Of a stretch of DNA of 64,000 nt, positions 4,530-52,304 are shown piece by piece. A program made the translations under genes and the position numbers. Origin of the DNA: Amaurobius ferox (Eukaryota > Arthropoda > Arachnida > Araneae > Amaurobiidae); assembly GCA_951213105.1 (NCBI GenBank), contig OX578153.1, forward strand, positions 53,350,520 to 53,414,519. Direction: 5' to 3'. Positions within the stretch are counted from its first letter, which is position 1. Each line of letters opens with the position of its first letter. Below the pieces are notes generated by a model. It was not told the DNA's origin, did no database searches, and saw only the letters and a list, made by a program, of their open reading frames with translations.

Positions 4530-4890
4530 GTTCTGTTACAGATCACATTTTACAACTTATGTTACTTGATATTTTTGAAATACAAAATAAGTTAACATCT
4601 TTATTACATAATTTTTTTGGATCATCAAACAACTTAAGTCGGTAAAATGTTGCAGGTCACATTTTACAATTTATTTTACTTATATTTTTGGAATAAAAAG
4701 GTTTTGACATCTTTAGTACGTAATTTCTTTTGGGTCATCAAAAATTTAAGTGGTGAAAAGCTGCAGCTCACATTTTACAATTTATTTTGCTAATATGTTT
4801 GAAATAGAAAATGCGTTAACATCTTTATTATATAATTTGTTTTGGGTCATCAAACAGTACAAGTCGATAAGAAGCAGAGCAATTTACAGA
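4530..4890. repeat. 114-bp tandem repeat, three units
   Basis: Three units starting at CACATTTTAC near 4,544, 4,658 and 4,769. Each holds a TTATTACATAATTTCTTTTGGG-like core and ends with AAGTCGGTAAA. Spacing is about 114 and 111 bp. Homologous arrays occur at 25,740-26,100 and 44,450-44,820. Confidence 0.85.
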
Positions 4891-10285: not shown

Positions 10286-10468
10286 ATGGTTCAAACTGCC
10301 ATGATGGAAGTGGTTTTATTCGTTTTATCATCAAAAGTTATGATTAATAATGAGCACTTAATACACTTAAGCACATTTCTTCTTATATTTTTGTTAATTA
10401 ATATTTCCAATTTATGGATTGATTGGAATGGTTTGATTGGATGGATTGATGGGAATGATGTCACATAG
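10286..10468 (+). pseudogene. Small membrane-protein-like ORF, copy 1 (interrupted)
   Basis: Encodes an N-terminus with a hydrophobic stretch (LSTFLLIFLLI) matching the frames at about 29,799 (copy 2, in-frame stop after PQDSA) and 49,649-49,888 (copy 3, 79 codons, open). Here the frame is diverted after the hydrophobic part by the 2.1-kb deletion junction near 10,420. The family is unrecognised. Differences between copies are mostly amino-acid changing, which argues against current function. Confidence 0.3.
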
Positions 10469-10671: not shown

Positions 10672-10680
10672 TAGTAAAAG
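10672..10680. repeat. Left 9-bp target-site duplication of foldback MULE
   Basis: TAGTAAAAG, repeated exactly at 20,010-20,018. A 9-bp duplication is characteristic of Mutator-superfamily insertion. Confidence 0.9.
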
Positions 10681-13600
10681 ACGTCTGTGAAGTTGGCCCC
10701 CCGACTTTGAGCAATTCAAATTCTGAAAACTGCATTCGTTTGAGCGTCGTTTGAGCGTGTTTGAGCGATAAAAAATTTCGTTTGAGCGACAATTCTAAAG
10801 CCGTAATTTTAAAAATAAATCCGGGGGGGGGGGCTAACTTCACGCAGCCCCCCGACTTTAACCAATTCAAAATCTAAAAACGGCATTCGTTTGAGCGTCG
10901 ACTGAGCGCGTTTGAGCGACAAAAATTTTCGTTTGAGCGACAGTTCTAAAGCCGTAAATTTAAAAAAACTTCTGGTCCCATCTGTGAAGTTGGCCCCCCA
11001 TTTAGAGCAATTTAAAATCTGAAACCTGCATTCGTTTGAGCGTTGGTTGAGGACGTTTGAGCGACAAAAATTTTCGTTTGAGCGACAATCCTAAAGCCGT
11101 AATTTTAGAAAAACTTCCTGGGCGCCTACTCCATCTAGCCCCCCGAATTTGAGCAATTCAAAAACTGAAAACGGCATACGGTTGAGCGTCGTTTGAGCGC
11201 GTTTGAGCGACAAAAAATAAATTTCGTTTGAGCGACAATTCTAAAGCCGTAATTTTAGAAAAACTTCCTGGGCGCCTACTCCAACTAGCCCCCCGACTTT
11301 GAGCAATTAAGAAACTGAAAACAGCATAAGTTTTAGCGTCGTGTGAGCGCGTTTGAGCGACAAACATTTTCGTTTGAGCGACAATTCTAAAGCCGTAATT
11401 TTGGAAAAACTTCCTGGGCGCCTACTCCAACTAATCCCCCGACTTTGAGCAATTAAAAAACAGAAAACGGTATACGTTTGAGCGTTGTTTGAGCGCGTTT
11501 GAGCGACAAAAATTTTCGTTTGAACGAGAATTCTAAAGCCGTAATTTTAGAAAAACTTCCTGGGCACCTATTCTACCTAGCCCCCCGACTTTGAGCAATT
11601 CAAAAACTGAAAACGGCATACGTTTGAGCGACAAAAATTTTCGTTTGAGCGATAGTTCTAAAGCCGTAAATTAAAAAAAACTTCTGGTCCCATCTGTGAA
11701 GTTGCCCCCCCCGACCTTGAGCAATTTAAAATCTGAAAACTGCATTCGTTTGAGCGTCGTTTGAGCTACAAAAATTTTCGTTTGAGCGGCAATACTAAAG
11801 CCGCAATTTCAGAAAAACTTCTGGGCCGATCAGTGAAGTTCCCCCCCGACTTTGAGCAATTCAAAATCTGAAAACTGCATTTGTTTGAGTGTCGGTTGAG
11901 AACGTTTGAGCGACAAAAGTTTTCGTTTGAGCGACAACTCTAAAGCCGTAATTTTAGAAAAACTTCCTGGGCGCCTATTCCAACCAGCCCCCCAACTTTG
12001 AACAATTCAAAAACAGAAAACGGCATACGTTTGAGCGTCGTTTAAGCGCGTTTAAGCGACAAAAATTTTCGTTTGAGCGACAGTTCTAAAGCCGTAAATT
12101 AAAAAAAACTTCTGATCCCATCTGTGAAATTGGCCCCCCATTTTGAGCAATTTAAAATCTGAAACCTGAATTCGTTTGAGTGTCGGTTGAGGACGTTTGA
12201 GCGGCAAAAATTTTCGTTTGAGCGACAATCCTAAAGCCGTAATTTTAGAAAAACTTCCTGGGCGCCTACTCCATACAGCCCCCCAACTTTGAGCAATTCA
12301 AAAACTGAAAACGGCATACGATTGAGCGCGTTTGAGCGACAAAAAATTTCGTTTGAGCGACAATTCTAAAGCCGTAATTTTAGAAAAACTTCCTGGGCGC
12401 CTACTCCAACTAGCCCCCCGACTTTGAGCAATTAAAAATCTGAAAACGGCATACGTTTTAGCGTCGATTGAGCGCGTTTGAGCGACAAAAATTTTCGTTT
12501 GAGCGACAATTCTAAAGCCGTAATTTTGGAAAAACTTCCTGGGCGCCGACTCCAACTAGCCCCCCGACTTTGAGCAATTAAAAAACTGAAAACGGCATAC
12601 GTTTGAGCGTTGTTTGAGCGCGTTTGAGCAACAAAAATTTTCGTTTGAACGACAATTCTAAAACCATAATTTTAGAAAAACATCCTGGGCGCCTATTCTA
12701 ACTAGCCCCCCGACTTTGAGCAATTCAAAAACTGAAAACGGCATACATTTGAGCGACAAAAATTTTCGTTTGAGCGATAGTTCTAAAGCCGTAAATTAAA
12801 AAAAACTTCTGGTCCCATCTGTGAAGTTGCCCCCCCCCCCACCTTGAGCAATTTAAAATCTGAAAACTGCATTCGTTTGAGCGTCGTTTGAGCTACAAAA
12901 ATTTTCGTTTGAGCGGCAATACTAAAGCCGCAATTTCAGAAAAACTTCTGGGCCGATCAGTGAAGTTCCCCCCCGACTTTGAGCAATTCAAAATCTGAAA
13001 ACTGCATTTGTTTGAGTGTCGGTTGAGAACGTTTGAGCGACAAAAGTTTTCGTTTGAGCGACAACTCTAAAGCCGTAATTTTAGAAAAACTTCCTGGGCG
13101 CCTATTCCAACCAGCCCCCCAACTTTGAACAATTCAAAAACAGAAAACGGCATACGTTTGAGCGTCGTTTAAGCGCGTTTAAGCGACAAAAATTTTCGTT
13201 TGAGCGACAGTTCTAAAGCCGTAAATTAAAAAAAACTTCTGATCCCATCTGTGAAATTGGCCCCCCATTTTGAGCAATTTAAAATCTGAAACCTGAATTC
13301 GTTTGAGCGTCGGTTGAGGACGTTTGAGCGGCAAAAATTTTCGTTTGAGCGACAATCCTAAAGCCGTAATTTTAGAAAAACTTCCTGGGCGCCTACTCCA
13401 TACAGCCCCCCAACTTTGAGCAATTCAAAAACTGAAAACGGCATACGATTGAGCGCGTTTGAGCGACAAAAAATTTCGTTTGAGCGACAATTCTAAAGCC
13501 GTAATTTTAGAAAAACTTCCTGGGCGCCTACTCCAACTAGCCCCCCGACTTTGAGCAATTAAAAATCTGAAAACGGCATACGTTTTAGCGTCGATTGAGC

Positions 13601-14362
13601 GCGTTTGAGCGACAAAAATTTTCGTTTGAGCGACAATTCTAAAGCCGTAATTTTGGAAAAACTTCCTGGGCGCCGACTCCAACTAGCCCCCCGACTTTGA
13701 GCAATTAAAAAACTGAAAACGGCATACGTTTGAGCGTTGTTTGAGCGCGTTTGAGCAACAAAAATTTTCGTTTGAACGACAATTCTAAAACCATAATTTT
13801 AGAAAAACATCCTGGGCGCCTATTCTAACTAGCCCCCCGACTTTGAGCAATTCAAAAACTGAAAACGGCATACATTTGAGCGACAAAAATTTTCGTTTGA
13901 GCGATAGTTCTAAAGCCGTAAATTAAAAAAAACTTCTGGTCCCATCTGTGAAGTTGCCCCCCCCCCACCTTGAGCAATTTAAAATCTGAAAACTGCATTC
14001 GTTTGAGCGTCGTTTGAAGACGTTTGAGCTATATAAACTTTCGTTTGAGCGGCAACTCTAAAGCCGTAATTTTAGTAAAACTTCTGGACCCATCTGTGAA
14101 GTTGGCCCCCCGACTTTGATCAATTCAAAATCTGAAAACTGCATTCGTTTGAGCGTCGTTTCAGGACGTTAAAGAGACAAAAATGTTCGTTTGAGCGACA
14201 ATTCTAAAGCTGTAATTTTAGTAAAACTTCCTGGGAGCCTATTCCATCCAGCCCCCCGACTTTGAGCAATTCAAAAACTGAAAACGGCATACGTTTGAGC
14301 GTCGTTTGAGCGACAAAAATTTTAGTTTGAGCGACAGTTCTAAAGCCGTAAATTTAAAAATG
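10681..14362 (+). repeat. Left arm of foldback element: ~147-bp tandem repeats
   Basis: About 25 units. Each contains CCCCCCGACTTTGAGCAATT, then an A-rich stretch, then several short GTTTGAGCG motifs and an AAAGCCGTAATTTT stretch. Starts of the GACTTTGAGC motif near 10,703, 10,854, 11,145, 11,295, 11,441 and 11,587 give a spacing of about 146-150 bp. Minus-strand open frames over it (for example 12,298-12,555, identical in protein to 13,425-13,682) are shadows of the repeat. Confidence 0.92.
11660..13960 (+). repeat. 1,127-bp near-identical duplication inside the left arm
   Basis: Sequence from about 11,660 to 12,786 is repeated almost base for base at about 12,787-13,913. For example, an 85-codon shadow frame at 12,298-12,555 recurs with identical translation at 13,425-13,682, offset exactly 1,127. 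Visible differences are few: C-run length and one T/C in a GTTTGAGCG motif (about 12,181 against 13,308). The block spans eight ~147-bp units, consistent with a recent unequal crossover, although an assembly duplication is possible. Confidence 0.85.
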
Positions 14363-14370
14363 CTTCTGGC

Positions 14371-15000
14371 ATCCAAAGTTGGCATCCAAATACAAAAGTA
14401 TTACCCACAAAGTATCTTTTCTAATTAATGGAACTAGCTAGATCCACGAGAATGATGTCACCCATTTTATCGCATGATATTCCTTATGAAAAGTAAACAT
14501 ATTTCAACCATAGGTAATATTTCTTTTAAACTTTATATGATTTTTTGATATTTTTTAAAAAAAATGTACAATATCTGGAGAACGGTTTATGTTAGCGTTG
14601 TAAAATTTATTTTAATTGTTTTCTAATGAAAAATTAAATAAGAAATGACTATTTACGTAACTTTATTAAAGGTTTTAGTTTTTTGATGATTTTTTCAAAA
14701 TTTCACTTGAAAATGTAGGGGGGGTGGAGGGTTTTGTACAAGCGATTTGCGTATCATGTATTGTAATTTTTGTACCAAATTTGTTCGAATCGGTCTATTC
14801 GTTCGTCAGTTATCGTCTGTACAGACTCACTGACACACACATACTTTTACACACACACACATCATCTCAAAAACGTCTGAGTCGTGTTCAAGGATGCTTG
14901 AAACGTGCTATCCCGTCGAAAACTCGAATTCAGATTTTCGACCACGTCACAATACTTTCGTTATATATTATATGTATATAAGGAAAGAAATGATGTGCAT
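14371..15000 (-). mobile_element. Fragment of hairpin-ended dispersed repeat nested in the foldback core
   Basis: Reverse-oriented partial copy of the 821-1,885 family. It matches 8,141-8,745 from the CAAATACAAAAGTATTAC stretch to the terminal GTATATAAGGAAAG but lacks the TCGCC block. It starts right where the left arm stops, so it probably replaced or interrupted element sequence. Confidence 0.6.
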
Positions 15001-15199
15001 GGCACAATGTTTTTAACGTTGATTTGTACATTGGGCACTTCTCCGGATGACAACATGTAAAACTCTTTCTAAAAATCCAATTAACTTATATTTCGCGCAA
15101 CTCTACATTGAGGATTATCTATATTGATAGCATCCGCTATAAACCATATAGTCCATATATTTAAATATTTAAATATATGAACTATATTGCAAGATTGAC

Positions 15200-15465
15200 T
15201 TGTAGAAACAATAGGCTTCCAATATTCGACGATTGAAATATTTGCAACAAATTTCATTCGAAAAATTCTATTTGTTTGTGAGATATCGCTTACACAGACT
15301 CATATATTAACACCCACACATACACACAGGTATCACCTGAAAAACGTTCGATTCAAGTTCAGGGATGTTTAAAAGGTGCTCTTCCGTTGAAAACTCGGAA
15401 TTCGAATTATAGACGTCGTCACAGTATTTTCCCTATATTTTATGCATATAGAGAAAGTAAAAATC
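15200..15465 (-). mobile_element. Second, shorter fragment of hairpin-ended dispersed repeat
   Basis: Starts with AATAGGCTTCCA and ends with TATTTTATGCATATAGAGAAAG, the same order as 8,507-8,743 but more diverged and truncated. It is a second nested hit just upstream of the transposase remains. Confidence 0.5.
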
Positions 15466-15598
15466 GTAGGTAATTTATTGTATTTAATCAACGAGCATTT
15501 TGTTTATATTTTTAGCAATACATTATTGGTAGAGAACTAGAGTCTAGCTATATACATCTAGCTATATACTACTAGAGTCTGGCTATATCCATCTATGA

Positions 15599-15967
15599 GT
15601 GCTTCGAAGTTATTCAACGAGATACACAATTGCCTTTATGAAAACTTATATTCCTCTAGATATAGCGCATTTTATGCCAATGCTTAGCAGATGGTCGTGT
15701 TTTTCAAAAAACACTCCGAAAAGAGGTAAAGAATTTTATTTGTTTTCCATATCACTTTTAGTTAACACCTCTGATCTGTCTTCTTTTGAGCATCTGTTGT
15801 CAAAAACAATTGTAGTTTCGAAGAGCGAAACAGATGGAGAAAAAGTTAACAGCAGAGAGTTGACTCCAGCGGAGTCGTCGAAAGCCCTGACCATCCGGCT
15901 CGTCCAAGGACTTAGAGCAGCAGTTTGGATGGCCGGCCAGCGGAGTCGTGTAAAAGGAATTTGTTAG
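15599..15967 (+). pseudogene. Mutator-type (Phantom/FB-like) transposase, middle fragment
   Basis: Open frame without an upstream ATG; it starts after a TGA at 15,596 and the first codon is GTG. Near its start, TYIPLDIAHFMPMLSRW, and then KEFYLFSISLL and SKSETDG, resemble segments typical of animal MULE transposases in which an Asp-Ile/Val-Ala-His stretch follows the catalytic core. The Asp in LDIAH may be the conserved acidic residue. The preceding DDE core is missing; nested repeats occupy 14,371-15,465. The frame ends at 15,967 and the protein continues, shifted, near 16,173. The assignment is by recalled family pattern. Confidence 0.6.
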
Positions 15968-16172
15968 AGTTAATTTCATCGACAGAATTATCGAGTGAGG
16001 AATTTTTTTTCAGACACTACTACGGACAGCAAGGTAAGTCACTTAATCAAATATGACTCATCTGATGAAATGATCACAAGAGCTTGAGTGAAGGATCAGT
16101 AGGAAAAAGGTAAAAAAGTATTATAGAGGGAAAAGAAATTAATCCTTTTTTTAACAGCAATTTATTGAAAAA

Positions 16173-16565
16173 TTGAAAAAAATATGCGACAGCTTTATTC
16201 TGTGGACGAGGGTAATGATTCCCAAGTTTAAATCCCCTTATCAAAGAGGATCATCCGCATCAGTAGAAGGAGATTTTGGTGATGTGAAGAACATAATGCT
16301 TCAAAATGAGAACCAACTACTTAGAGTAGATAAATTCATGAAAATATATATTAAGTATTTGGAGGGTTGTATGAAAATAGCTGAAGCTGAAGAAAAAAGT
16401 AATGAACCTTGTTTCAAGTCAACAAGTAAACAAAATTCGGAGACCAAAGAAAGTTCAGAGGAAATCGTGGATGATAGAGATGGAATAGCGTATACTGAAA
16501 TACCCAAATATTCCGAAAAAACTGCCCATGATTCCTTACAGAGAATCAGAGGTCTTAAGAAATGA
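16173..16565 (+). pseudogene. Mutator-type transposase, C-terminal part
   Basis: The frame has no upstream ATG and its first codon is TTG. SSASVEGDFGDVKN (about residues 27-40) followed by RVDKFMKIYIKYLEG (about residues 50-64) is a recognisable signature of FB/Phantom-like animal transposases, where a Ser-Ser-Ala-Ser-Val-Glu stretch carries the last acidic residue. After residue 65 the protein becomes Glu/Ser/Lys-rich and linker-like. Its stop overlaps the start of the peptidase frame by four bases (ATGA, 16,562-16,565). In an intact element the two were probably one polyprotein or exons of one gene, now separated by a shift. Confidence 0.65.
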
Positions 16566-17677
16566 AGAAATCGACAACACAGGAAAGTACAAAGTCTTTG
16601 AAAAGTGAGGGTTTAGAAACCGTAGAGAGTGATGTAGAAATAGAAAAAGAAACTAAAAGAAAACTTACTTCGTCGAGTGATTTAATCTGCAAAGATATAC
16701 TAGCTGAAGATCTTTGGAAAAAAAATAAAAGGAAAAAATCGAAATATTTCAAACAGAATCCGGATATCAGAGGCTGGTTAGTATTTTCTGGTTATTCAAA
16801 ATTTGGAGCATCCATTAAACTAGCAAAAAATGGAAATTTATTTAAGCCTATAAAAATTGAAAAAGAATATATTTCAGTAAAAAACACCTGCCCATTTGAT
16901 TCCATTCTTCAGAGTCTAAGTATTGCAATAACATACTTCGAAACTTACATGAATTACGCTAAAAGGCCTATGAATGCCACAGTTCAGTTGGCATTTAAAT
17001 TATTGACTAATACAAGCATGTGTGATTTTTAAAAATATAGAGCTAAGCATCTATCAAATATATATCCGAAGATACAATCATTTATGTTCCCAGATCTTTT
17101 TATAATTGATTCAACAGCCAATGTTATAAATTACTTGGAGAAAGCATTCAAAGATGAACCAAGTGTCACAATTATTAAGCATTCCAATGAGTGCAGTGCA
17201 ACAAAGATGACACATTCGCCAATTTTCCGAGTTGACAGGGAAAAAATTATGGCCGACGGTGTGAAAGGACTAGAATTGACGATTGAAGTGCAGTTACAAT
17301 CTACAAGCAATCTATTTTGTAGAATTCCAAACTGTAATGGTGTCCAATCAGTAAAACGTGTATACGGTGAACATTTATTCATTGAATTGGATTTCTTGGA
17401 TCCTGGTAATCGTCGTCTGGAGGAGCAGATGACTTTAAATCAAGCATGTGATTTAATTAAGATATCTGATTTTCCAGTTGAACTGTCTATCGAACATTCA
17501 CGATTTTTTATTGGTGCTGTTATAGCTTATGAACCTGGCCATTATATTGCTTATTGCCACCGAACAAGTGGAACATGGGAAAAGTACAACGATATAGCGA
17601 ACAGTGTTATCCATTGTAAAAGTGATTTGGAAATAAATCCTCACTCTGCCTTATATTTATTACCTTCGGAGTTATAG
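16562..17677 (+). pseudogene. Ubiquitin-specific-protease-like (C19-type) cysteine peptidase encoded by the transposon, one internal stop
   Basis: A 371-codon frame with a single TAA at 17,030-17,032 (codon 157). The first 60 residues are a charged linker. A Cys box, NTCPFDSILQSL, places the candidate nucleophile at Cys110. The His box, PGHYIAYCHR followed by TWEKYND, places His at codon 327 and Asp at codon 344. This Cys...His...Asp order and the GHYIAYC/W..YND wording match the USP fold; a related Ulp1- or OTU-type peptidase is less likely. Such domains would act on ubiquitin-like conjugates; the role in transposition is unknown. The two halves stay in the same frame, so the stop is recent. 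It lies between the foldback arms. Confidence 0.7.
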
Positions 17678-17849
17678 AATCAACTACCACATTAAAAGAC
17701 TAGCAGTAAGTTTCGCCATGCAGACTTAGAAATAATTTGTGAGTATTTTATTTTATTTTTCTTTACTTAGAAAAATGTAAATTTAAATTAGTTTGATGTT
17801 TTAATATGAAAAAATTGCTGTTTTAATATGAAAGCTGTTTTAATGTAAA
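17678..17849. other. Spacer between peptidase frame and right arm
   Basis: AT-rich spacer with a short direct repeat: GTTTTAATATGAAA twice and GTTTTAATGTAAAA, at about 17,798-17,850. A possible poly-A region for the element gene; no gene seen. Confidence 0.4.
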
Positions 17850-20009
17850 AAGTATTGTCGCTCAAATGACAATTTTTGTCGTTCAACCGTCCACAAACGA
17901 CGCTCAAATGAATGCAGTTTTCAGATTTTGAATTGATCAAAGTCGGGGGGCCAACTTTACAGATGGGCCCAGAAGTTTTTCTGAAATTGCGCTTTAGTAT
18001 TGCCGCTCAAACGAAATTTTTTGTCTCTCAAACGTCCTCAAACGACGCTCACACGAATGCAGTTTTCAAATTTTAAATTGCTCAAAGTGGGGGGGGGGGG
18101 GCAACTTCACAGATGGGACCAGAAGTTTTTTAAATTTACGGTTTTAGAACAGTCGCTCAAACGAAAGTGTTTGTCGCTCAAACGCGCTCAAACGACGCTC
18201 AAACGTATGCCGTTTTCAGTTTTTGAATTGCTTAAAGTCGGGGGGCTAGTTGGAGTAGGCGCCCATGAAGTTTTCCTAAAATTACAGCTTTAGAATTGTC
18301 GCTCAAACGAAATGTTTTTTCGCTCCAACGTCCTCAAACGACGCTCAAACGAATGCAGTTTTCAGATTTTAAGTTGCTCAAAGTGGGGGGGGGGGGACTT
18401 CACAGATGGGACCAGAAGTTTTTTAAATATACGGCTTTAGAACTGTCGCTCAAACCAAAATTTTTGTCGCTTAAACGCGCTCAAACGACGGTCAAACGTA
18501 TGCCGTTTTCAGTTTTTGAATTACTCAAAGTCGGGGGGCTAGTTGGAGTAGGCGCCCAGGAAGTTTTTCTAAAATTACGGCTTTAGAATTGTCGCTCAAA
18601 CGAAATTTTTTGTCGCTCAAACGCGCTCAAACTTATGCCGTTTTCAGTTTTCAAATTTTAAATTGCTCAAAGTGGGGGGGCCAACTTCACAGATGGGACC
18701 AGAAGTTTTTTAAATTTACGGTTTTAGAACAGTCGCTCAAACGAAAGTGTTTGTCGCTCAAACGACGCTCAAACATATGCCGTTTTCAGTTTTTGAATTG
18801 CTTAAAGTCGGGGGGCTAGTTGGAGTAGGCGCCCATGAAGTTTTTCTAAAATTACAGCTTTAGAATTGTCGCTCAAACGAAATGTTTTGTCGCTCCAACG
18901 TCCTCAAACGACGCTCAAACGAATGCAGTTTTCAGATTTTAAGTTGCTCAAAGTGGGGGGGGGGGACTTCACAGAAGGGACCAGAAGTTTTTTAAATATA
19001 CGGCTTTAGAACTGTCGCTAAAACGAAAATTTTTGTCGCTTAAACGCGCTCAAACGACGGTCAAACGTATGCCGTTTTCAGTTTTTGAATTACTCAAAGT
19101 CGGGGGGCTAGTTGGAGTAGGCGCCCAGGAAGTTTTTCTGAAATTACGGCTTTAGAATTGTAGCTCAAACGAAATTTTTTGTCGCTCAAACGCGCTCAAA
19201 CTTATGCCGTTTTTAGTTTTTTAATTGCTCAAAGTCGGGAGGGCTGGATGTAGTAGGCGCCCGGGAAGTTTTTCTAAAATTACGGCTTTAGAATTGTCGC
19301 TCAAACGAAAATTTTTGTCGCTCAAACGCGCTCAAACGACGCTCAAACGAATGCAGTTTTCAGATTTTGAATTGCTCAAAGTCGGGGGCTGAGTGAAGTT
19401 AGCCCCCCGGGATGTATTTTTAAAATTACGGCTTTAAAATTGCCGCTCAAACGAAATTTTTTATCGCTCAAACGCGCTCAAGCGACGCTCAAACGTATGC
19501 CGTTTTCAGTTTTTGAATTGCTCAAAGTCGGGGGGCTGGATGGAATAGGCGCCCAGGAAGTTTGTCTAAAATTACGGCTTTAGAGTTGTCGCTCAAACGA
19601 AAATTTTTGTCGCTCAAACGTCCTGAAACGACGCTCAAACGAATGCAGTTTTCAGATTTTAAATTGCTCAAAGTGGGGGGCCAACTTTACAGATGGGACC
19701 AGAAGTTTTTTTTAATTCACAGCTTTAGATCAGTCGCTCAAACGAAAATTTTTGTCGCTCAAACGCGCTCAAACGCGCTCAAACGACTCTCAAACGATTG
19801 CCGTTTTCAGATTTTGAATTGCTCAAAGTCGGGGGGCTGCGTAAAGTTAGCCATTTTTGTAAAGTTATCCAAGGCATTTAAAATTACGGCTTTAAAATTG
19901 TTGCTCAAACGAAATTTTTTATCTCTCAAACGAGCTCAAAAGACGCTCAAACGAATGCAGTTTTCAGAATGTGAATTGCTCAAAGTCGGTGGGCCAATTT
20001 GACAGACGT
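17850..20009 (-). repeat. Right arm of foldback element: inverted ~147-bp tandem repeats
   Basis: The same repeat unit as the left arm in reverse (CGCTCAAAC motifs, AATTGCTCAAAGTCGGGGGG). About 14 to 15 units. A duplication of roughly 575 bp is visible (18,145-18,700 against 18,720-19,200), sharing GTTTTAGAACAGTCGCTC and GCTCCAACGTCC variants. The arm is shorter than the left one (2.2 against 3.7 kb). Plus-strand open frames here are repeat shadows. Confidence 0.92.
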
Positions 20010-20018
20010 TAGTAAAAG
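20010..20018. repeat. Right 9-bp target-site duplication of foldback MULE
   Basis: TAGTAAAAG, identical to 10,672-10,680. Flanking unit sequence resumes with GTCCGATGA, matching GCTCCGATGA at about 32,260 and GCTTCGATGA at about 52,003. Confidence 0.9.
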
Positions 20019-25739: not shown

Positions 25740-26118
25740 GATTTGTTTCAGATCACATTTTACAACTTATGTTACTGATATCTTTGAAATACAAAATGTG
25801 TTAACATTTTTATTACATAATTTCTTTTGGGTCATCAAACAAATTAAGTTGGTAAGAAGTTGCAGCTCACATTTCATACTTTATTTTACTAATATTTTTA
25901 AAATAAAAAATGTGTTAACATCTTTAGTACATAATTTCTTTTGGGTCACCAAACTATTTAAGTCGGTAAAAAATTACAGTACATATTTTACAATTTATTT
26001 TACTAAAATTTTTGAAATAAAAAACGTGTTAACATCTTTATTACATAATTTCTTTTGGGTCATCAAAGAGTATAAGTCGATAAAATGCAAAACAATTTGT
26101 GGAAGCAAAATATCTTAA
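25740..26118. repeat. 114-bp tandem repeat, copy 2 version
   Basis: Three units at 25,754, 25,868 and about 25,980. Because 114 is 38 codons, one plus-strand frame (25,738-26,118) stays open through all three as a repeated HNFFWV protein pattern. There is no start context or domain, so it is considered repeat-derived. Confidence 0.8.
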
Positions 26119-29798: not shown

Positions 29799-30027
29799 GA
29801 TGGAAGTGATTTTATTCGTTTTATCATCAAAAGTTATGATTAATAATGAGCACTTAATACACTTAAGCACATTTCTTCTTATATCTTTTTTAATTATTGT
29901 TTTTAATATAAAAAAATGCAGTGTTAAATTTCCGCCTAATGTACCAAAATATTATCATCCCCAGGATAGCGCATAGGTGAATAAATTACAAAATTTCATG
30001 AACTTGATTAGGACAGTAAGATTGTCG
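29799..30027 (+). pseudogene. Small membrane-protein-like ORF, copy 2 (in-frame stop)
   Basis: Matches the 79-codon frame of copy 3 at 49,649. It has a hydrophobic segment, then KFPPNVPKYYHPQDSA followed by TAG, then continues VNKLQNFMN. No family recognised. Confidence 0.3.
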
Positions 30028-30328
30028 GTGATTTAAAAGACCTTATGTCAGAACCTATTTAGGACAATTTTCGATTGAGACGACTATGTTCAACTCGAAG
30101 TACCATATAATGTCATACAAAATAAAATTCATAAAAATGCTTCTGTTTAATTTTTTAAGAGTTTCCCTATATTTTGCAGTTTTAAATTTTAGCTTTAAAT
30201 ACAGTATTTGAAGTTATACCGAATCATAAGAAAACTTTAAGTTCTGTTTCTGTTTTTTCACAAGATTGAAACTTGACACTTTGTAAGGACAGTCATGCGC
30301 TGGACACATAAAACTGTTAATTACACTT

Positions 30329-30631
30329 TTGCTCAGCACGCTCTATATTTATGACTGCATTTCAAGAATCTTATTCAAACGAGTTGCCACACGTAAATTT
30401 GCTGCAGACATAAACACAGAACACAACATTTTGTTACTCTGCGATTTAGCGACTAATAAAGCCATTCAAGTCATATTTCTGAATTCTTCAAGTCAATCAA
30501 TATCTTCAAGTCAATCAAGTCAATCAATTAGTCAATCAATTTCTTCAAGTCATTCAATTAGAGACATATTTCTGAAAAACATTAATTCAAAATCTGTATA
30601 TCGGGTTCTTAAACCAAGATGCCAGATGTAA
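30329..30631 (+). other. Unrecognised open frame with a copy-specific CAAGTCAAT expansion
   Basis: 100 codons from a TTG. The same frame is open in copy 3 at 50,187-50,411 (74 codons), which lacks the roughly 75-bp Ser/Gln-rich stretch made from CAAGTCAAT repeats (30,466-30,560). Near-identity of the two N-terminal 50 residues reflects unit duplication. No domain recognised; coding status doubtful. Confidence 0.25.
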
Positions 30632-33528
30632 TTAGATTAAATTAAGGAAATGCGCTGAATCGAAAAGATTTGAGATGAGCGTCGGTGTTTTACTCTTTCT
30701 TCATTTTCGACATTCTTGGGCCAGCCGAGAACCACCGCTTGAAGAATGCGGAGGAATTTGAACACCTAATATAATTTTTTCGCAAGAAGTTTTAATGTCC
30801 ATTGCCTTAAGTATGTTACTTGAGTGCGTTTGACATTATTCAAATGGAAATTGCATATAGAATTCGGGAATTAAGAGCTGTTTCGGAAATCAATTCAATA
30901 TAAAGTTTCTCAGATTTTCCCTATAATTACGAATTCGTGTTAAAATAAAAATAGTAACAGCATAAGTAGTCGAAGGAAAAGAAAACTATCAAACGATTTT
31001 TGAGGCAAAATGCAGCTTTCTTCTTGAGATAAAAGGAAAGAGTAACCACACTATCATAGGCAAGAAGGAGTCTCCGTTAGTAATTGATTAATTCGCTTGA
31101 GCAAGACAATCGTTACCAATAAAGAAATATGAGAATAAACAAGATGAATTATATATGGGAAAATATTATATGCTTTTATACTAGGTTTTCTGTTTTAAAT
31201 TTTTTTATTTTTCCCTGGGTTAGGAGAAACTATTTTATTATAGACACCGTTTTGGCTATGGTGTGGTTGCTCTGATTTTTATTTTTATTTTCATCCGGTT
31301 GATTTGAGCCTCAAAAATCGGTTGATACTTTTAATCAACAACATATGCTGTTGCTAATGAAGCAATTTTTGATAAGTTTATCCTAAAAATGCTGTTTCAG
31401 TGAATTTTTGTATAAACTTGTACTTTTGTGCATACTTCAAAAGCCAAGTTTAGAAAAGAAAGAGTGTGTTCGAAAGGGAGAAAAAACTACTGAATTTTCA
31501 AATTTGAGAAGTTAAGAAAACTGTTTGACCTATTTTAGCATAGATAATTACATGTCTCTGCAAATTGTGCCGTTGCGTCTGCTGGAAGACTTAAAATTTA
31601 ATTGTTACAAAATTTGATTTTTAGGAAAGTTATGTGGCTCTCTGGAACCAGCACCGTTATAGCACAAATAACAGAAATGAAGTAGATTACTTTCACAATA
31701 CACACAAAAATGCTAAGAAAACGTAACTATAATTTACGTGTATAAAGACATCAAAGAAAGTTCCGTTGGATAGTTTCTATTAAAGAAATGAAACTTCTAC
31801 CGAATTGGTCTTTTATCTTTCATGAACCAAGGGCTACATGTGAGTCAGTTATTGGTTCGCGGACAGCACATAAAAATACATATGCAGGTATACGCACTCA
31901 CATGCACAACTGTACGCAAATATATGCACTCATATGCACAAATGTACTCAAGCATATGCATTAATATTCACAAATGTACCCAAGAAGAGTTATTGCAACG
32001 AAAATTGAGCGTTACATAAATGAAAAAGGAATGATGTCCAATACGCTTTCGTTAAGATATTAACGAGCAGATTTTATGAATTTCTACGAAATGAAAAGGT
32101 CAATATAGGAAAGCTAACAACAATTTAAATTTTAATTTAGTATAAGGGAACTTAAGTTGGCTTACTTTATCTGTCGTCTAACGAATGCTTTTGAAGATTG
32201 ATGATGACAGTAATTACACGAATATTTAACAAAATCGGCGGGCATCTTGTTATAAATGCTCCGATGAAAAATATAGTATATTTTTATAAATTTATAAAAT
32301 TTGTATATTTATCTACCGTAAATAACTTCATGGAACATTTTATTAAATGTAAAATTTCGTCTAATTAAGTATTCAAAGATTGTTTAAGCCTCCAGTTGGC
32401 AAGCTGCTCCAAATGGTGGCGGTTTGCAAGAATTTAAAATTGTTAAACGACAGTTCTGCTAAAGTGCAAGCAAATTGGTGGTAAAAGCTGCTGCACTTGG
32501 TTCGATAACCCGTGTCCCTACAAAAATTTATGTTTTTCAATAATTTGCCATGTACCAAACAAATGATTGACGGATATCTAGAAGGGTTAGGCGTTCGTAT
32601 TCACTGAAGTTTTTCATTTTCATAGCACATTTAAAAATTTTTTCTTAGAATGCAAATTTAAATTGCCAATGCTGAAATTCATCATTAATGAAATTTCATT
32701 TTCTTGATACATTGACAAAATAAGTACATTAGTACAAATGTTTTCCCGGAAATGGAAAAATCTAAGTTACCCTTAAGTTCTCTATTCATTTTGAAAATTT
32801 TTGAATTTCACAAATTTTAAAGAAATGAATGTATTTATAAAAATTTTATCAAGTGCGAATCTTATACAATTTTATAGGGAGTGACCTCTTTCTTGAAACA
32901 GCACTTAATGTCTTTCAAAAGACTAAAATTTTACATTTCACAATGAATTTATTTTCTATTTTCTAGATAAAAATATTAATAATTTTAAGTATAATTTATA
33001 CTGAAATTTAGTGGATACTTTTAATATGCTAAAACCCCTTTTATATATTTTAAAATAATACAAAGCGAATTATACTTCTGATAAAGATCGCTTTCGAATG
33101 ATTCACATAGTTCTAGAATATTAATAGATGTAACTTTTTATGAAAGTGCAAATCATACAGATATTTTGTGGGCTATTTTCAAACTATATCTTATTGTTTT
33201 TTTACACTTCTTAAAAGACGTACAAAAATGATAATGATGATAAAAGACCTTCTATCAAAGTTGTGTGCTTGATCTTTTTGCTATATGTTATTGTATTTTT
33301 GAAACAATAAGCCAAAATCTGCTACTGATATTTGTACTGCAATTTTCTGATAAAACTTTAAAAATTAATATCTTCATTTTATATATTTTTTCTGAAAATG
33401 CAAATCGAGCAGAAATTTGGTGGGCGTGTTTAACATACTAAAACTATATATTTTAAAGGAATATTTCACAGTGCAATTCTCTATCCGATTGTAATTCATC
33501 TACCTCGGTTTTTTGTATAGAGCAAATT

Positions 33529-44449: not shown

Positions 44450-44823
44450 CTGTTACAGATCACATTTTACAACTTATGTTACTGATATTTATGAAATTCA
44501 AAATCTGTTAACATCTTTATTATAATTTCTTTTGTGTCACCAAACAATTTAAGTCGGTAAAAAGTTACAGCTCATATTTTGCAATTTATTTTACTAATAT
44601 TTTTGAAATAACAAATGTGTTACCACCTTCAGTACATAATTTCTTTTGGGTCATCAAACAATTTAAGTCGGTAAAAAATTGCAGCTCACATTTTACAATT
44701 AATTTTACTAATATTTTTGAAATAAAAAATGTGTTAACATCTTTATTACATAATTTCTTTTGGGTCATCAAACAGTATAAGTCGATAAAATGCAAAACAA
44801 TTTACAGAAGCAAAATATCTTAG
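44450..44823. repeat. 114-bp tandem repeat, copy 3 version
   Basis: Units at 44,461, about 44,573 and 44,687. Confidence 0.8.
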
Positions 44824-49648: not shown

Positions 49649-49888
49649 ATGATGGAAGTGATTTTATCCGTTTTATCATCAAAAGTGATCGTTAATAATG
49701 TGCACTTAATACTCTTAAGCACATTTCTTCTTATATTTTTGTTAATTATTGTTTTTAATTTAAAAAAATGCAGTGTTAAATTTCCCCCTAATGTACCACA
49801 ATATTATCATCGCCAGGATAGCGCAGAGGTGAATAAATTACAAAATTTCATGAACTTGAGTAGGACAGTAAGATTTTCGGTGATTTAA
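49649..49888 (+). other. Unrecognised 79-codon open frame, membrane-anchor-like
   Basis: An N-terminal segment with a hydrophobic stretch (LLSTFLLIFLLIIVFN), then a Lys/Pro segment (KCSVKFPPNVPQYYHRQ) and an Asn-rich end. The equivalent frames in copies 1 and 2 are broken or diverted. It may be a fragment of a larger protein such as a first exon; no homologue recognised and no promoter or splice evidence. Confidence 0.3.
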
Positions 49889-52304
49889 AAGACCTTGTGT
49901 CAGAACCTAACTAGGCCAATTTTCGATTGAGTTTTCGATTCTATGTTCAACTCTAAGTACCATATAATGTCATACAAAATAAAATTTATAAAAATGCTTC
50001 TGTTTAATTTTTCAAATGTTTCCCTATATTTTGCAGTTTTAAATATTAGCTTAAAATACAGTAATTGGAAGTTATACCGAATCATAAGAAAACTTTAAAT
50101 TCTGTTTCTGTTTTTTCACAAGATTGAAACTTGACACTTTGTAAGGACAGTCATGCGCTGGACACATAAAACTGTTAATTACACTTTTGCTCAGCACGCT
50201 CTATATTTATGACTGCATTTCAAGAATCTTATCCAAACGAGTTGCCACACGTAAATTTGCTGCAGACATAAACACAGAACACAACATTTTGTTACGCTGC
50301 GATTTAGTGACTAATAAAGCCATTCAGGTCATAAAAATGAGAGACATATTTCTAAAAAACATTAATTCAAAATCTGTATATCGGGTTCATAAACCAAGAT
50401 GCGAGATGTAATTAGATTAAACTAAGGAAATGTGCTGAATCAGAAAGATTTGAGATGAGTGTTGGGTTTTTTTCTCTTCAACTCCGACATTCTTGGCCCA
50501 CCCGAGAACCACTGCTTGAAGAATGCGGAGGAATTTGAACACCAAATATCATTTTTTCACAAGAAGTTTTAATGTTCATTGCTTTAAGTATGTTGTTTGA
50601 GTGCGTTTCCCGTTATTCAAAAGGAAATTGCATATAGAATTCGGAATTGAAGAGCTGTTTCGGAAATCAATTCAATGTAATGTTTCTCAGATTTTCCCTG
50701 TAATTACAAATTCGTGTTAAAATAAAAATAGTAACAGCATAAGTAGTCGACGGAAGAGAAAAGTATCAAACGATTTTTGAGGCAAAATGCAGCTTTTTTA
50801 TGATAAAAGGAAAGAGCAACCACTCTGTCATAAGCAAAAAGGAGTCTCTGTAAAAAATTGATTAATTCGCTTGAGCAAGACAATCGCTACCAATAAAGAA
50901 ATATGAGAATAAACAAGATGAATTACATATGGGGAAATATTATATGCCTTTATACTAGGTTTCCTTTTTGAAGTTTTTTTATTTTTCCCTGGGTCAGGAG
51001 AAACTATTTATTTATAGACACCGTTTTGGCTATGGTGTGGTTGCTCTGATTTTTATTTTTATTTTCATCCGTTTGATTTGAGCCTCAAAAATCGGTTAAT
51101 ACTTTTAATCAACAACATATGCTGTTGCGAATGAAGCAATTTTTTATAAGTTTATCCTAAAAATGCTGTTTTAGCGAATTTTTGTATAAACTTGTAGTTT
51201 TGTGCATACTTCAAAAGCCAAGTTTAGAACAAATAAAGAGTGTGTTCGAAAGGGAGAAAAAACTACTGGATTTTCAAATTTGAGAAGTTAAGAAAACTAT
51301 TTGACCTATTTTAGTATAGATATTTACATGTCTCTGCAAAGTGTGCAGTTGTGTCTGCTGGAAGACTTAAAATTGAATTATTACAAAATTTGATTTTTAG
51401 GAAAGTTATGTGGCACTCTAGTGCCATCTCCGTTACTGCACGAATAACAGAAATGTAGTAGATTACTTTCACAATGCACACAAAAATGCTAAGAACAAGT
51501 AATTATGATTTACGTGTATAAAGACAACAAAGAAAGTTCTGTTGGATAGTTTCTATTAAAGAAATGAAACTTCTACCGAATTGGTCTTTAATCTTTTATG
51601 AACCAAGGGCTACATTTGAGTCAGTTATTGGTTCGCGGGGAGCACATAAAAATACATATGCAGGTATACGCACTCATAAGCACAAATGTACTCAAGCATA
51701 TGCATTAATATGCTAAATGTACCCAACAAGGGTTACTACAACCAAAATTGAACGTTATATAAATGGAAAAGGAATGATGTTCCATACGCTTTCGTTATGA
51801 TATTAACGAGCCGATTTTATGAATTTCTACGATATGAAAAGGTCAATATAGGAAAGCTAACAACATTTAAAAATTTTTATTTAGTATAAGGAAACTTAAA
51901 TTGGCTTAGTTTATCTGTCGCCTAGCGGAGGCTTTTGAAGTTTGATGATGTCAGTAATTACACGAATATTTAACAAAATCGGCGGACATCTTGTAATAAA
52001 AGCTTCGATGAAGAATATAGAATGTTTTATAAATTTATAAAATTTGTATATTTATCTACCGTAAATAACTTCATGTAACATTTCATTAAATGTAAAATTT
52101 CGTTTAGTTAAGTAAACCAGAAGAATTACCACTAGCATCCCGTTTGCAAGCTGCTCGGAATGGCGGCAGCTTGCAAGAAATTAAAATTGTTAAACAACAG
52201 TTTGCTAAAGTGCAAGCAAATTGGTGGTAAAAGCTGCGCTTGGTTCGATAACCCGTGTCCCTACAAAATTTCTGTTGTTCTATAATTTGCCATGTACTAA
52301 GCAA

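Follow-up and report, generated by a model that had tools for sequence, protein, structure and literature searches.

Foldback arms are a feature of the FB/NOF elements of Drosophila. Here we describe a transposon with such arms in a 64,000-nucleotide stretch of the genome of the spider Amaurobius ferox (GenBank assembly GCA_951213105.1, contig OX578153.1, positions 53,350,520 to 53,414,519 of the forward strand); this whole stretch is called the window below, and plain positions are counted from its first base. Several published systems share parts of its anatomy. The FB/NOF elements have foldback arms and 9-10-bp target duplications, the latter described for FB4, whose transposase is called unknown (PMC8277862). 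Galileo, a member of the P-element superfamily, is similar in the multiple binding sites of its long foldback-like ends, which are built of tandem repeats with several tested transposase binding sites (PMC3688188), and Tetris in arm repeats that turn satellite: its 220-bp repeats have grown into satellite arrays, and its classification is left open in the paper that describes it (PMC4079207). The Phantom-type Mutator-like elements (MULEs) Tm1 and Muta1 have 8-10-bp duplications and composite or repetitive terminal repeats (PMC3169594, PMC5225508, PMC6446971). The closest published anatomy is that of Rehavkus, a group described by a 9-bp duplication, a PHD finger and a minisatellite (PMC6446971); Rehavkus-1_TC of Tribolium castaneum, similar in size at 9.5 kb, carries 164-bp tandem units in its inverted termini that can be used as satellite DNA (PMC10218199).

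The window element probably belongs to a Rehavkus-like family of cut-and-paste DNA transposons with foldback arms, of which it is an old copy that has suffered internal deletion. We observed a terminus shared among copies, 9-bp duplications that differ from site to site, a related intact open frame, near-identical copies that appear recent, and inverted arrays of 146-bp units. We filed the element as Rehavkus-like, replacing the label "Phantom" from an earlier sequence-only reading, and set it beside Rehavkus by published description rather than by reference sequence. Elements of this kind are already known; the interest lies in a phased layout of sites in the arm units of two families, a protease-like module in the transposase, and a long array on the contig labelled C2, none of which is visible from the window alone.

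In an exact search of the whole window, TAGTAAAAG occurs twice, at 10672 and 20010, and its reverse complement does not occur. The element therefore spans 10681-20009, 9,329 bp between perfect 9-bp copies of this sequence. The features are as follows.

10672-10680: left copy of the 9-bp target duplication, TAGTAAAAG
10681-14369, plus strand: left arm, about 25 units of 146 bp, with outermost bases ACGTCTGTGAAGTTGGCCCCCC
14370-17850, plus strand: core with transposase remains
15599-15964, plus strand: transposase remnant after the second catalytic D, with a 71-bp insertion at about 15879-15949
16155-16562, plus strand: transposase remnant with the putative catalytic E (SSASVEGDFGDVK)
16559-17029, plus strand: remnant of the transposase in a different frame; carries the Cys box of the protease-like module (NTCPFDS)
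17033-17674, plus strand: transposase C-terminus with the His box GHYIAYC and WEKYND
17851-20009, minus strand: right arm, about 15 units of 146 bp, inverted
20010-20018: right copy of the 9-bp target duplication, TAGTAAAAG
32245-32265, plus strand: paralogous unoccupied site
51985-52005, plus strand: paralogous unoccupied site

Both element ends read inward as ACGTCTGT; the element starts with ACGTCTGTGAAGTTGG, and its end, read inward on the other strand, is ACGTCTGTCAAATTGG. When the element and one 9-mer are removed, the joined flanks can be aligned across two paralogous places, near 32,250 and 51,995, each of which holds a single diverged 9-mer (TTATAAATG, TAATAAAAG) and three extra bases, TTG. 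An exact 9-mer match is expected by chance about 1e-5 times per comparison at the base composition found here. These results bear out two claims of the sequence-only reading, that a 9-bp duplication flanks a 9,329-bp element and that two other unit copies hold the target without the insertion. Its term "empty-site controls" needs qualification: the sites are unoccupied, but the blocks around them are about 80-91% identical and are paralogues, not an empty allele, so that they fix the boundaries without dating the insertion. Since repeated arms are hard to assemble, we considered whether the element is an assembly join between a satellite array and unrelated DNA. The perfect duplication and the unoccupied paralogous sites argue against this, as do 15 of 18 other element pairs that have the same terminus and their own perfect 9-mer, and we give the idea next to no weight. 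About 2.1 kb present in both paralogous blocks (29896-32028 and 49762-51771) is missing directly left of the element (window 10400-10452).

The host assembly comprises 3.56 Gb in 276 contigs, labelled C2, C8 and so on below, and the 300-bp left end of the window element has at least 750 matches in it. We searched for the 19-base terminus with at most one mismatch and found 34 forward and 33 reverse matches genome-wide, compared with none in either direction for the reversed control. Among these 67 matches, 23 have no partner in the list, seven are internal to paired elements and one is the left end of the window element. Eighteen convergent pairs besides the window copy could be read at both ends, and we detected a perfect 9-bp duplication in the 15 mentioned above and an 8-bp duplication in one. 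Ten of the 23 unpaired matches were also read, though an unpaired end cannot show a duplication. The duplicated 9-mers vary between sites, with a weak preference for A/T in the middle of the sequence as judged by eye, and the paired elements range from 2,287 to 24,720 bp. The genome check that the sequence-only reading called for thus succeeded, while its view that so fully delimited an example is unusual does not hold within this genome: with the window copy included, perfect 9-bp duplications flank 16 of 19 paired elements.

The foldback-type architecture proposed for the element is confirmed by its arms, two mutually inverted tandem arrays (10684-14369 and 17854-19994) in arms of about 3.7 and 2.2 kb. 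A unit period of 146 bp, in place of the 147 bp first estimated, leads in 17 of 18 arms in the nine elements read whole (the window copy and eight others), and ranks third after 438 and 292 in the remaining arm. Inverted similarity extends far beyond the first and last 70 bp to which it had been assigned: an alignment of the outer 280 bp of the two window arms, with 252 aligned bases and 56 gap columns, gives 92.1% identity. In the eight other whole copies the arm ends are 97.1-99.6% identical, and the window copy therefore looks old. By eye, a reversed terminus-like stretch, GGGGGGCTAACTTCACGC, ends the first unit of the left arm (window 10822-10855), so that the outermost 165 bp or so resemble a small inverted-repeat module of their own.

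Six of the eight other whole elements have a common core, which measures about 9.6 kb, or 13.5 kb in one case, and is 98.3-99.5% identical to the C23 copy in long aligned pieces; by this measure these elements appear to have spread recently. With sides matched by core orientation, the arms of these six measure 2,049, 3,961, 4,641, 3,650, 9,575 and 2,633 bp on one side and, in the same order, 3,124, 5,405, 6,166, 3,096, 5,573 and 6,862 bp on the other. Near-identical cores with arms of 2.0-9.6 kb indicate that the arms change in length far more quickly than the elements change in sequence. In five of the six elements the terminus recurs exactly inside one arm, close to its inner edge, and this internal copy probably goes back to a single source copy. 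Exact internal copies oriented like the outer end were seen in arms of elements on C16, C20, C4, C24, C2 and C17; MULEs with multiple terminal repeats exist in plants (PMC3310237).

To the coding remains that had been noticed in the window element correspond transposase remnants at 15599-17674. The protein piece encoded at 17033-17674 has 44 matches in the genome, and one of them lies in an intact open frame of 1,138 amino acids at C2:25360284-25363697. When the protein of this frame was aligned with 23 relatives, D373, D489, H492 and E667 were invariant and D443 nearly so, and a DxxH motif (residues 489-492) followed the second D in the 24 proteins. We take D373, D443 and E667 to be the DDE residues and DxxH to be a signature of the MULE/hAT/P group. 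Relative to the C8 copy, the window copy has a gap of about 1.6 kb and lacks roughly the first 459 transposase codons; it also has the 71-bp insertion, a change of frame near 16,560 and a stop codon at 17030-17032 preceding the C-terminal remnant. Together these lesions mean that it cannot make the transposase: judged from its sequence, the window copy is a dead, internally deleted, frame-broken member of its transposon family, which we call family 1. Two stretches of its core (14800-14980 and 15280-15460) are similar to each other by eye and are probably an older repeat. An N-terminal frame of 206 amino acids is kept in six of eight fetched copies, and we considered a repressor role for it. 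We rejected this role, as the six copies have 8-9 non-synonymous versus 3-4 synonymous differences from the intact frame, and the C8 copy has 22 versus 6, with no sign of purifying selection.

The C-terminal part of the transposase is likely a thiol protease of the ubiquitin-specific protease (USP) type, to go by its motifs. A profile of the 24 proteins matched USP2 with an E-value of 0.01; NTC..DS and GHY.AYC...W...[ND]D fell, in the correct order, on its catalytic boxes, so that Cys box, His box and the following Asn/Asp are arranged as in USP/UCH proteases. A script found the Cys box in 17 of the 19 proteins of at least 950 amino acids. The His box with W..[ND]D is present in 11 of the 19, which reach the C-terminus (seven by script; P0002, P0014, P0020 and the family 3 protein described below by eye). 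Among the other eight, six end just short of the His box, P0013 diverges earlier and P0019 ends soon after the Cys box. The protein of family 2, also described below, matches UCH with an E-value of 4.6e-4, below the curated cut-off. Transposon-borne proteases of ubiquitin type have precedents, and Ginger transposons reportedly carry Ulp1. Helitrons carry VTD and OTU domains (PMC9741609), and a KI-MULE protease has been described (PMC8277862). The module found here differs in looking USP-class and in being fused to a DDE transposase, and would extend the known range of transposon-carried deubiquitinases.

Several observations weigh against our reading of the element and its protein. Two of the 18 element pairs (C7:5036337 and C7:12353810) have no exact duplication, sharing 6-7 flank bases, and were counted as failures. 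Pfam scans of the family 1 frame gave no match to PF23663 or to a PHD domain. Matches to the MULE domain PF10551 are weak, so that the assignment depends on motifs read by eye even at the level of the superfamily. In the protease part, the stretch with the Cys box scores -2.2 bits on its own in the USP2 match, and the Pfam protease matches of families 1 and 2 fall below the curated cut-off.

These results also bear on the name of the element. The term MULE holds loosely: the DDE residues and DxxH speak for it, but PF10551 is found in only 3 of the 24 family members at an E-value of 0.5 or lower (best 0.0056; 0.017 for the family 3 protein), and the two scores shown beside the cut-off are both below it. 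"Phantom-type" is not supported, as neither the FLYWCH finger nor the MULE domain that mark Phantom was found by Pfam scans in the full 1,138-amino-acid frame. A Phantom-type MULE, or a close relative of Drosophila FB/NOF, would have repetitive arms and 9-bp duplications as family traits. Tm1 of root-knot nematodes, placed in Phantom, has 9-bp duplications and composite arms (PMC3169594), Muta1 is termed a foldback type (PMC5225508), and FB4 has its 9-10-bp duplications (PMC8277862). Tm1 and Muta1 differ, however, in having FLYWCH/MULE transposases of about 500 amino acids (given for Tm1-A and Muta1) and 12-15-bp subterminal repeats, compared with 1,138 amino acids including a protease-like C-terminus and 146-bp units here. 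None of the 41 relatives that we found is named Phantom or NOF, though only a few carry any name; those that do are insect proteins, from Aphis craccivora, Phaedon cochleariae and Lasius platythorax. We regard membership in either group as unlikely.

The Rehavkus traits (PMC6446971) fit better: both the 9-bp duplication and inverted ends of tandem repeats are present. Because family 1 has no PHD-like finger, we call the element Rehavkus-like and not Rehavkus. A PF23663 finger, which we read as PHD-like from its Cys/His pattern, lies between the DDE and protease parts in three other proteins, P0019, P0023 and the family 3 protein of the same genome. The USP-like module is a further difference, as such a module goes unmentioned for Rehavkus in the cited passages of PMC10218199 and PMC6446971.

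The same genome holds two related families, with open frames of 1,087 (family 2) and 1,131 (family 3) amino acids. The transposases of families 1 and 2 are 27% identical, and a tree joins families 2 and 3 on one side and family 1 and P0001 on the other, each with full support. Family 3 frames are found at C18:10536311 and C21:39257451, and the compared stretches (3,579 bp) are 99.7% identical, which points to recent spread. The loci of family 2 are as follows.

C17:11591398 and C15:123623486, with array pairs on C5, C12, C16, C19 and C22: second foldback family, with units of about 148 bp, its own terminus and 9-bp duplications

Among the matches listed, the array pairs on the latter five contigs are inverted and 0.2-2.9 kb apart. 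The family 2 terminus ends ...GGCGAAATGGACCT, and in each of the three copies of which both ends were read, a 9-bp duplication is seen by eye; one of the three has a changed terminal base.

We found that the arm units of families 1 and 2 each contain a 10-bp site four times, at start positions of 0, 11, 21 and 42 bp. Spacings of 21, 11 and 10 bp occur 408, 309 and 307 times among 1,561 exact sites of family 1, all of which have one orientation in the arms (1,561 versus 0), and 15, 16 and 12 times among 68 sites of family 2. The full four-site cassette occurs in exact form 233 times in family 1 arms and seven times in family 2 stretches. Because the units of one array are copied from one another, this evidence amounts to two families rather than to a thousand sites. 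Steps of 11, 10 and 21 bp fit whole turns of B-DNA, which suggests that proteins bound to the sites would sit in a row on the same side of the helix. Neither Galileo nor Tetris is described as having four phased sites per unit in the cited passages of PMC3688188 and PMC4079207.

We propose, tentatively and at somewhat less than an even chance, that Rehavkus-like foldback arms are helically phased arrays of transposase binding sites (0/11/21/42 bp), an arrangement that selection would have kept even as the letters of the sites (GTTTGAGCG, GTTAGTGCA) changed in concert with the transposase (at 27% identity); that the repeats may break free into satellite DNA, as at C2:25.37-25.56 Mb near the intact frame; and that the module fused to the DDE transposase is a functional deubiquitinase of the USP class. 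Alternatively, the shared layout could reflect common descent or an exchange of arms between families and have no function, the 146-bp unit being a neutral tandem repeat. The sites CGTTTGAGCG (family 1) and CGTTAGTGCA (family 2) agree in 7 of 10 bases, by which the two cassettes are probably homologous, and the layout counts amount to just two independent families. At 27% transposase identity, however, unselected DNA should have lost the spacing, which also matches helical turns, and the three-site pattern occurs 628 and 570 times genome-wide on the two strands while the reversed control never occurs. A functionless layout therefore seems rather unlikely to us. A search with a single degenerate pattern for a third family with the same layout and other site letters gave no matches, and when fetched loci no shorter than 400 bp were scanned for the 0/11/21/42 layout (discarding hits with at least 8 A/T in 9, and with family 1 loci left out of the output), family 2 alone was returned; the scan included a 108-bp array beside another transposase, in which the layout was not seen.

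In the reading that we favour for the element, a DDE transposase supplied by another copy would bind the arms, cut at ACGTCTGT and insert the element with a 9-bp stagger. Each unit would be a binding platform with four sites of about 10 bp, roughly one, two and four helical turns apart, which transposases in a row on one face of the DNA could occupy, and long arms would raise specificity and help the ends to pair. Unequal exchange or slippage would add and remove units at a higher rate than substitutions change the core. The USP-like module would probably act on the transposase or on host proteins, cleaving off ubiquitin or a ubiquitin-like tag. One assembly thus provides the termini, duplications, transposase frame and arm units of one foldback family, with a second family for comparison, and thereby opens the role of the arm repeats to experimental test, whereas for FB4 the transposase is called unknown (PMC8277862).

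About 8 kb to the right of the intact frame on C2, at 25,371,707, begins a run of exact 34-base pieces of the family 1 unit, one after another and in minus orientation, that extends to 25,402,002 or beyond (at least 30 kb). Three-site matches in the same orientation recur as far as C2:25,562,991, with more in between, over about 190 kb. The whole genome contains the 34-mer 147 times in forward and 765 times in reverse orientation, an excess for which the C2 locus may account. Such a run may be an arm turning into satellite DNA; it is also possible that separate insertions or an assembly artefact produced it. The nearest left terminus lies at C2:25,319,850, a small minus-strand cluster lies left of the frame (C2:25,355,992-25,356,171), and among the matches with at most one mismatch there is no right terminus in this part of C2, so that terminus, frame and array may belong to more than one element. 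The Tribolium study suggests that ultra-long reads might reveal longer arrays of Rehavkus-derived satellite (PMC10218199), and the C2 run is a candidate for such growth of arm repeats into longer satellite arrays.

Elsewhere in the window, the paralogous blocks contain three short arrays (4539-4856, 25745-26085 and 44452-44790) of a 112-114-bp repeat, with about three copies each.

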